44,450 nt of DNA, from the NCBI GenBank assembly GCA_030705825.1, contig JAUZPR010000012.1, positions 1 to 44,450 of the forward strand, written 5' to 3'. Shown piece after piece: positions 32,070 to 34,254 of this stretch. The notes under the pieces are model-generated. The model saw only the letters and a program-made list of their open reading frames with translations, made no database searches and was not told the DNA's origin. How positions within the stretch are numbered: the stretch's first letter is position 1; each line of letters starts with the position of its first letter. Position numbers and translations under genes: made by a program. The DNA comes from Bacillota bacterium. GTDB taxonomy: Bacteria; Bacillota; Clostridia; Acetivibrionales; JANLFN01.

Positions 32070-34046
32070 ATGACAAAGCACGATACCAATGAATATGGAA
32101 ACCATAGTATTACTTCCTTAAAGGGAGCGGACAGGGTAAGACTAAGGCCGGGTGTTATATTTGGCTCTGATGGTCTTGAGGGCTGCCAGCATTCAGTATT
32201 TGAGATACTTTCAAATTCAATAGATGAAGCCAGGGAAGGCTACGGAAGCTGTATTGAGATAGTCCGATATAAGGATTTCTCCATTTCTGTAAGAGATGAA
32301 GGAAGAGGAGTACCTCTTGACTATAATTCAAAAGAAGAACGTTATAACTGGGAATTGGTTTTTTGTGAATTATATGCAGGCGGTAAATATAAAAACAATT
32401 CGGGCGAGAACTATGAGTTCAGCCTTGGATTGAACGGGCTTGGAAGCTGTGCCACACAGTACAGCTCTGAATATATGGATGTAACTGCTTACAGGGATGG
32501 TTTCAAATATGACCTGCATTTCGAAAAAGGTGAAAATGTAGGTGGTTTGAAAAAAGAAAAGTATAAAACCGAACAAACAGGTACATTCATAAAATGGAAG
32601 CCTGATCTTGATGTATTTACAGATATAAAAATTCCGCTTGAATATTTCCAGGACACATTGAAAAAGCAGGCTGTGGTTAATGCCGGACTGCGTTTTAAAC
32701 TGCTGGATGAGGAAACCGGCGAGGAATATATATATTATTATGAAAACGGCATAGTTGATTATATCAGTGAAGTCAACCTGGATAAAGGCTTTACCGGCGT
32801 ACAGTATTATGAAACCTCAACCAAAGGAAGAGACCGTGAGGATAAACCTGAATACAAGCTCAAAATACAGATAGCGTTCTGCTTCAATAATGAAATAAAT
32901 CTTCTTGAATATTACCATAACTCAAGCTTTCTTGAACATGGCGGTTCGCCTGATAAGGCGGTTAAAACAGCTTTTGTAAATGTCCTGGATAAGTTCCTCA
33001 AACAGAGAAACAAATACAATAAGGATGAATCAAAGGTTACATTCGCAGATATTCAGGACAGTATTATATTGGTTACCAATTCCTTTTCTACAATGACCTC
33101 ATATGAAAACCAGACTAAAAAATCAATTACAAATAAGTTCATACAGGATGCAATGACTGAATTCCTGAAAGAACGGCTCGAGATATATTTTATCGAAAAT
33201 AAAATCGAAAGCGATAAAATAATCGAGCAGGTCCTTGTGAACAAAAGAAGCAGGGAAACGGCAGAAAGAACCAGAATAAACATAAAAAAGAAATTGGGCG
33301 GAACAATCGACATCTCAAACAGGGTAAAAAAGTTTGTTGACTGTAGGACAAAAGACTTAAGCAGGCGCGAAATCTATATAGTGGAAGGTGATTCAGCTCT
33401 TGGAGCCTGCAAGCTGGGAAGGGACGCAGAGTTCCAGGCTATAATGCCGGTCAGGGGAAAGATTCTGAACTGCCTCAAGGCCGACTACGATAAAATTTTC
33501 AAGAATGATATCATAGTAGACCTTATTAAAGTGCTGGGCTGCGGAGTTGAAGTCAAGTCAAAGCACAATAAGGACCTGAATACCTTTGATATGGAAAATC
33601 TCAGATGGGATAAAATAATTATTTGTACCGATGCCGATGTTGACGGCTTCCAGATAAGGACCCTGATACTGACAATGCTGTATACCCTGGTTCCCACACT
33701 TATTCAGGAGGGAAAGGTTTATATTGCTGAGTCGCCTTTGTTTGAAATCAGTGCAAGGAATAAAACCTATTTTGCATACAGCGAGAAAGAAAAAACCGAA
33801 ATACTTTCAAAAATAAACACGAAATACTCTATTCAACGTTCCAAAGGTCTTGGTGAGAATGAACCTGAAATGATGTGGCAGACCACCATGAATCCTGAGA
33901 GCAGAAGACTTATAAAGGTTTTGCCCGATGATATGGAAAGAACGGCTGAAACCTTTGAGCTGTTGCTGGGTGACAACCTTCAGGGAAGAAAGCTTTTTAT
34001 AGAGGAGAATGGATACAAGTACCTGGACATGATTGATGTAAGTTGA
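32070..34046 (+). CDS. Divergent type IIA topoisomerase subunit B (ParE/GyrB-like)
   Basis: The 658-aa ATPase subunit of a second-type gyrase/topoisomerase IV. The GHKL part has R-P-G-V-I-F-G-S, F-E-I-L-S-N-S-I-D-E-A with catalytic Glu45 and Asn49 (the usual D before N is S), V-R-D-E-G-R-G-V-P, and L-G-L-N-G-L-G near 125. The Toprim part has V-E-G-D-S-A near 437 and D-A-D-V-D-G near 520, where the usual D-G-x-H-I-R-T-L is D-G-F-Q-I-R-T-L. Q-R-S-K-G-L-G-E-N-E-P-E closes it. All catalytic residues are intact, but the wording departs from housekeeping GyrB and ParE. Shine-Dalgarno AGGTGA. The A subunit follows after a repeat cluster. Confidence 0.9.
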   Translation: MTKHDTNEYGNHSITSLKGADRVRLRPGVIFGSDGLEGCQHSVFEILSNSIDEAREGYGSCIEIVRYKDFSISVRDEGRGVPLDYNSKEERYNWELVFCELYAGGKYKNNSGENYEFSLGLNGLGSCATQYSSEYMDVTAYRDGFKYDLHFEKGENVGGLKKEKYKTEQTGTFIKWKPDLDVFTDIKIPLEYFQDTLKKQAVVNAGLRFKLLDEETGEEYIYYYENGIVDYISEVNLDKGFTGVQYYETSTKGRDREDKPEYKLKIQIAFCFNNEINLLEYYHNSSFLEHGGSPDKAVKTAFVNVLDKFLKQRNKYNKDESKVTFADIQDSIILVTNSFSTMTSYENQTKKSITNKFIQDAMTEFLKERLEIYFIENKIESDKIIEQVLVNKRSRETAERTRINIKKKLGGTIDISNRVKKFVDCRTKDLSRREIYIVEGDSALGACKLGRDAEFQAIMPVRGKILNCLKADYDKIFKNDIIVDLIKVLGCGVEVKSKHNKDLNTFDMENLRWDKIIICTDADVDGFQIRTLILTMLYTLVPTLIQEGKVYIAESPLFEISARNKTYFAYSEKEKTEILSKINTKYSIQRSKGLGENEPEMMWQTTMNPESRRLIKVLPDDMERTAETFELLLGDNLQGRKLFIEENGYKYLDMIDVS

Positions 34047-34054
34047 GGTTATAG

Positions 34055-34236
34055 AACTCACCCCTAGCCCCTCTCTTTCCAAAAAGAGGGGAACTAGTAA
34101 GGTGAAAAAAAGAAAAAGATTCAGGAACTTACCCCTAGCCCCTCTCTTCTGGAAGAGAGGGGTTGGGGTGAGTTTAATAAATATTAAAAGGCACTTCACC
34201 CCTCTTTTCTGGAAGAGAGGGGCTAGGGGTGAGTTT
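34055..34236. repeat. Cluster of three palindromic (REP-like) elements
   Basis: Element 1 (34055-34104) starts AACTCACCCCTAGCCCCTCT and carries a CCCCTCT / AGAGGGG stem. Element 2 (34126-34174) is an almost perfect 49-base palindrome, AACTTACCCCTAGCCCCTCT... ...AGAGGGGTTGGGGTGAGTT, centred on CTTCTGGAAG. Element 3 (34192-34236) has the same right arm, AGAGGGGCTAGGGGTGAGTT, but a shortened left arm. They fill the space between the two topoisomerase genes. They are GC-rich against an AT-rich background, as expected for mobile REP-type or RPE-type repeats. Confidence 0.9.
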
Positions 34237-34254
34237 TTCGGGAGGAATTTAATT

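Follow-up and report, generated by a model that had tools for sequence, protein, structure and literature searches.

Organization of the Topoisomerase Locus

The window analyzed in this study is a stretch of 44,450 nucleotides from a clostridial member of the Bacillota (GenBank assembly GCA_030705825.1, contig JAUZPR010000012.1, positions 1 to 44,450), which includes neighboring genes for the B and A subunits of a type II topoisomerase (Table 1). The B gene ends with a stop codon at 34044-34046, and its homologues terminate at the same residue. The intergenic gap that follows is 208 nt long, and three GC-rich hairpins occupy most of positions 34055-34235. Unit 1 is a single copy with its tail oriented toward the B stop codon, from which it is separated by 8 nt. 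Unit 2 is symmetrical, with the order tail-hairpin-tail, and can be read as 34126-34162 on the forward strand and as 34139-34174 on the reverse strand. Units 2 and 3 form an inverted pair with the tails outward, and their arms (34126-34163 and 34198-34235) are 89% complementary.

Table 1. Features of the topoisomerase locus, in window coordinates. R1 is the covariance model of the palindromic unit.
Feature	Position	Strand	Description
Type II topoisomerase B subunit (GyrB/ParE-like), 658 aa	32070..34046	+	NCBIfam PRK05644, E=1.8e-153
Palindromic unit 1	34055..34091	+	Tail AACTCACCCCTAG followed by hairpin CCCCTCTCTTTCCAAAAAGAGGGG; R1 57.6 bits
In-frame open stretch, GTG 34102 up to the predicted true start	34102..34254	+	Judged untranslated as part of the A subunit; homologues lack it
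Palindromic unit 2	34126..34174 (hairpin to 34175)	.	R1 57.5 and 57.9 bits
Palindromic unit 3	34199..34235 (hairpin from ~34192)	-	R1 59.9 bits; repeat search
Shine-Dalgarno GGGAGGA	34240..34246	+	Read from sequence; 8 nt upstream of TTG 34255
Type II topoisomerase A subunit (GyrA/ParC-like), 727 aa	34255..36438	+	TTG start; homologue alignment, Tyr index, NCBIfam

The three palindromes had been noted in a preliminary description of the sequence and were confirmed; dinucleotide shuffles of the window contained no such hairpin. Three matches to the exact core CCCCTCT-N(2-12)-AGAGGGG are present in the window, all of them in this gap, and none was seen in 100 shuffles. The RNA of the gap has a predicted fold of -119.8 kcal/mol, compared with -72.6 kcal/mol in shuffled sequences. 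The units were also considered as intrinsic terminators and rejected, since there is no T run behind unit 1 or unit 2 and only TTTTTC, read from the sequence, behind unit 3. The Rfam search of the hairpins returned only sub-threshold matches, mostly to miRNA families and all far under the gathering scores.

Start of the A Subunit and the Upstream Reading Frame

The closest homologues of the A subunit are 70-75% identical (locus L034, Pseudobacteroides, Acetivibrio and Ruminiclostridium), and their initial ATG falls opposite TTG 34255 in the alignment. The N-terminus is MSDKNL in the L034 protein and MSEKNL in the A subunit of the window, and the catalytic Tyr (APRYTE) is residue 120 when counted from TTG 34255. 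By homology, TTG 34255 is therefore the predicted start of the A subunit. It has a Shine-Dalgarno sequence of its own upstream and is the start favored in the preliminary description. The gene start in the window is corrected accordingly; an automatic caller could set it 51 codons too early.

The frame of the A subunit can be followed upstream of this start. It was described earlier as running from an ATG at 34102 through the second and third elements and into the A gene without a stop, with the peptide PLFWKRG encoded twice. This proved accurate except for the codon at 34102, which is GTG. The frame is stop-free back to 34042, which is 71 codons before 34255, and so passes through the first element as well. 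GTG 34102 is the first possible start, as no usable ATG, GTG or TTG was found in the gap upstream of it. Extensions of at least 51 codons occurred in 3-4% of dinucleotide shuffles, and an open frame of 71 codons is mildly unusual. The repeat unit itself is stop-free in four of its six frames. For these two reasons, little weight can be placed on the open frame.

The same gap was compared at 67 homologous topoisomerase loci, and the unit was absent from the B-A gap in all of them. The start of the homologues at the TTG position, the Shine-Dalgarno sequence, the position of the catalytic Tyr and the absence of the unit from these 67 loci indicate that the repeats are extragenic and almost certainly lie outside the protein. 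With translation of the A subunit predicted to begin only at TTG 34255, the readable upstream frame would be a by-product of stop-poor repeats.

In most relatives the B-A gap is approximately 20-150 nt long. At seven loci (L034, L040, L056, L058, L068, L069 and L077) the gap before the A subunit is 200-800 nt, and some of these gaps contain other repeat-like sequences. The spacer thus looks as if it tolerates insertions. The best match to the A subunit in G001, another genome of the family, is only 33% and there is no close homologue; the second topoisomerase pair is therefore not universal in the family.

The Palindromic Unit Is Dispersed in the Genome

The unit consists of the tail AACTCACCCCTRG and a hairpin of the form CCCCTCTCTT..AAGAGAGGGG. 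The consensus of 15 aligned copies is 36-40 nt long and comprises the tail AACTCAYCCC, a variable foot (for example TRG), a stem of 10-11 bp and a loop of 4 nt. Next to the stem, the foot variants are CTAG, CTG, CGAC, CTGG and CTAT. The cells of the stem are paired in 98.7% of cases, and the sub-families CCCCTCTC, TCCCTCTC and CCCTTCTC vary jointly on both sides of a pair.

R1 was trained only on units from the genome of the window. The search for further copies in this genome gave 24 full-length matches at 17 loci, so the gap sequence is not a single-copy feature. At the 15 loci read besides the window, no open reading frame of at least 100 aa was overlapped by the unit; the coding fraction, measured on the window only, is approximately 83%. 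By our own reading, the tail of single units points toward the 3' end of the neighboring gene in 10 of 11 cases (binomial p=0.006). Several loci are inverted pairs with the tails outward, and three such pairs are alike over approximately 100 bp, with limits near the tails. The unit is thus a short, tailed, dispersed palindrome that is extragenic and mostly 3' of genes, which makes it a REP in the broad sense, at a copy number that is low next to classical REPs.

When 60 relatives were searched with R1, 31 matches were found in G026, 19 in G023, one weak match in G028 and none in the other 56. This patchy abundance, limited to the genome of the window, G023 and G026, is as expected for a mobile or horizontally acquired element, and together with the 17 loci and the gaps of the relatives it upholds the early impression of dispersed, apparently mobile palindromes. 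The family is a dispersed REP-like element and not a coding insert of the Rickettsia type, because it is present at 17 loci, is extragenic at 15 of the 15 other loci and is absent from the gap in homologues. In G026 (C9, L161:1566-2006), an inverted pair of units with its spacer is present in three tandem copies with a period of 173 bp.

DUF559 Genes Flanked by Inverted Hairpins

Repeats of this kind are found near DUF559 genes. DUF559 was tested from a prior guess, and the G023 result is in part a confirmation of that guess; the search sets used later are independent of it. In G023 the unit of the window type brackets a DUF559 gene at three sites, in inverted orientation and with the tails outward. 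The copy on contig C127 is intact (PF04480, E=4e-26), and those on C84 and C18 are decayed. These copies are similar over approximately 370-500 bp, from unit to unit, and gene and brackets thus act together as a single mobile element.

We take DUF559 to be a family of Vsr-like nucleases of the PD-(D/E)XK type. The flanked gene belongs to the DUF559 / PRK09767 family, and the flanked proteins share a D...E-x-D..H...D set in which D52, E63, H69 and D76 are invariant and D65 is nearly so. The nearest relative with a solved structure is PDB 3hrl, an 'endonuclease-like protein'. In the literature searched, which left most subscription journals outside, no report was found that links DUF559 with inverted or palindromic repeats or with mobility.

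Inverted hairpins around DUF559 genes were then sought at three levels. In the order-wide PF04480 search, all seven stand-alone DUF559 genes or remnants had inverted hairpins at both ends, with a weak score at L167 (38, where shuffles reached 30 at most). The flanking hairpins of DUF559 in G026 and G016 include ones of other sequence. The DUF559 domains within long proteins that were inspected (L170, L174, L177 and L178) had no hairpin flanks. At the level of the phylum, 3 of 12 strong DUF559 matches passed the inverted-repeat test and 9 failed, several of the latter at contig ends; L194, L199 and L233 have units on one side. Among 12 plasmid matches, six passed clearly with scores of 52-128 (Pseudanabaena twice, Sinorhizobium, Azospirillum, Deinococcus and Sphingomonas), three were borderline and three failed; of 62 control flanks of the topoisomerase A gene, none passed (maximum score 24; the set omits one locus with an N run). 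One borderline case, L200 from Synechocystis, has R1 units on both sides. R1 matched both flanks with the tails outward at L169 and L181 (G023 and G016), in Synechocystis and in Pseudanabaena. The arrangement of DUF559 between inverted tailed hairpins was therefore seen repeatedly, with cases in Bacillota, Cyanobacteria, Alphaproteobacteria and Deinococcus.

Several of these loci have features of their own. A longer DUF559 element is present four times in G026 (L168, L182, L185 and L187) and exceeds 700 bp in L168; its outer ends lie near GGGTGTATTTAATT / TATGCACCC, outside the hairpins, and the genes are decayed or shortened in three copies. On a plasmid of Pseudanabaena galeata (L211), the palindromes surround a DUF559 segment that is annotated within a protein of approximately 1600 aa, and this element may thus have landed in frame inside a gene. 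On a plasmid of Sphingomonas parapaucimobilis (L210), a hairpin-ended DUF559 gene lies between sufB and sufC. Ends without a gene recur in many Rhizobiaceae replicons, with several per replicon in Azospirillum lipoferum. Empty sites were sought for the Sinorhizobium, Sphingomonas and Azospirillum plasmids and no clean one was found, the relatives being too rearranged; no target duplication was obtained.

The co-occurrence of the two features by genome was also examined. Of the 397 further genomes searched in the phylum, 4 contained R1 copies and 10 had strong DUF559 matches; 3 genomes had both. DUF559 is thus enriched in genomes with R1 copies (3/4 vs 7/393, Fisher p=4.6e-5; p=0.003 when collapsed to genera). 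In the fourth R1 genome, G413, a fragment of DUF559 lies next to R1 units at the end of a contig. PF04480 had no match in the genome of the window, and its copies are therefore without a resident partner in this assembly; they could be remnants, or a gene that the genome later lost could have moved them.

Proposed Origin of the Units

The units in the gap belong to an extragenic REP-like family and are most probably non-autonomous derivatives of elements with the order unit, DUF559 gene, inverted unit. In the full form of the element, a Vsr-like DUF559 nuclease would recognize the tailed hairpin and nick or cut there, and repair or replication would then copy the unit elsewhere. Cutting at the hairpins would thus be the means by which DUF559 moves them, and the units of the window would descend from such elements. 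In this lineage, the units would have entered the parE-parC-type operon at the non-coding gap directly behind the B stop, where the hairpins may also affect topoisomerase expression. A wider claim, for which we judge the chances to be about even, is that DUF559 proteins are the mobilizing nucleases of minimal elements that cross phyla, each with a gene of approximately 120 codons and two inverted tailed hairpins, and that units without a gene gave rise to REP-like repeats in many genomes, including those in this operon.

Several other explanations were weighed. First, the DUF559 genes may be only passengers or frequent landing sites, with the palindromes moved by something else. This is possible though doubtful. 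Several of the genomes are rich in palindromes, the genome of the window has no DUF559 gene, and G026, the richest relative, has DUF559 genes that end in another type of hairpin, which is a point against the DUF559 link. However, inverted flanking on both sides was seen for DUF559 and not for control genes, the element recurs with its gene in G023 and G026, and R1 copies and DUF559 occur together by genome.

Secondly, the hairpins could be a device of the operon, such as an attenuator, an RNA processing site or a 3'-stabilizing site, selected to set the A:B ratio. The very stable fold of the gap (z=-9.4) and the location of units behind stop codons throughout the genome are in keeping with this, but all 67 homologous loci examined lack the hairpins, which are therefore not conserved in this operon, and a U-run of the usual length for an intrinsic terminator is missing. 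We regard such a device as unlikely.

Third, the units could be classical REPs of the GTAG/CGTC type that owe their movement to a RAYT, a Y1 tyrosine transposase. The architecture matches in its short tail tag, hairpin, inverted pairs and extragenic location 3' of genes, and the genome of the window encodes four Y1_Tnp proteins, one of them with flanking hairpins. However, the unit of the window flanks none of the four Y1_Tnp genes, the hairpins around L026 and L029 differ from it in sequence, and the foot reads CTAG or a variant where it meets the stem, neither GTAG nor CGTC. This origin is improbable, and the resident Y1_Tnp genes were rejected as partners, their flanks having other hairpins or none. 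At L026 (1035-1063 and 1985-2010; G000:C61), a gene for a 266-aa RAYT-like Y1_Tnp protein has the different hairpin TGAGTCAGGGGACAGTCCCCTGACTCA on both sides, and the two are a candidate RAYT/REP pair. At L029 (1406-1725; G000:C235), the hairpin GGGCGGCT..AGCCGCCC lies immediately upstream of a short Y1_Tnp gene and is present again in frame within its coding sequence, as the peptide NGRLWAAAPT.

Lastly, in-frame coding insertion of the Rickettsia type, with an extended A subunit made at least sometimes from GTG 34102, is very unlikely: the 71 open codons at a 3-4% chance by shuffling, a GAGGGG 10 nt upstream of that GTG and the N-terminal REPs reported in open reading frames of other species (PMC3733652) are outweighed by homologues that begin at the TTG position, the strong Shine-Dalgarno sequence ahead of it, the extragenic location of the other copies (15/15 examined loci) and a unit that is stop-free in four of six frames, and many of those REPs annotated at the N-terminus may themselves be extragenic, since translation may begin downstream (PMC3733652).

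Comparison with Known Repeat Systems

The likeness to Rickettsia palindromic elements, drawn in the preliminary description, is limited to repeats that are palindromic and readable in frame. The Rickettsia elements are inserted in frame inside protein genes, whereas the family described here has no intragenic copy among the 15 other loci. Its single readable case lies upstream of a conserved A start to which the homologues keep, in a frame that is open at close to chance, and the analogy was not retained.

MITEs are also short, non-autonomous derivatives of a longer coding element with inverted repeats. However, the ends of the window type are self-complementary tailed hairpins, the parent gene is no known transposase and no target duplication was obtained.

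The closest parallel is with REP, BIME and REPIN elements and the RAYT (TnpA-REP) transposases (PMC3733652, PMC2817692, PMC3116915). In both systems, tailed palindromes of 20-40 nt are dispersed, form inverted pairs, lie outside genes and mostly 3' of them, and are patchy between species, and the full form brackets a small gene of nuclease type. The two differ in the foot, which is CTAG and variants here and GTAG/CGTC in REP/RAYT, and in the bracketed gene, which is DUF559 in the proposed element and a Y1 HUH tyrosine transposase in REP/RAYT. REPs of the CGTC type are without a dedicated transposase and show only a few fortuitous associations with other transposase classes (PMC3733652). DUF559, bracketed by such hairpins in several phyla, is a testable candidate for the spread of palindromic repeats beyond the RAYT/GTAG class. 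It is proposed that DUF559 partners these palindromes as RAYT transposases partner classical REPs. If this is true, a family of unknown function gains a candidate function, and RAYT/REP would have a counterpart of the PD-(D/E)XK type in these elements.
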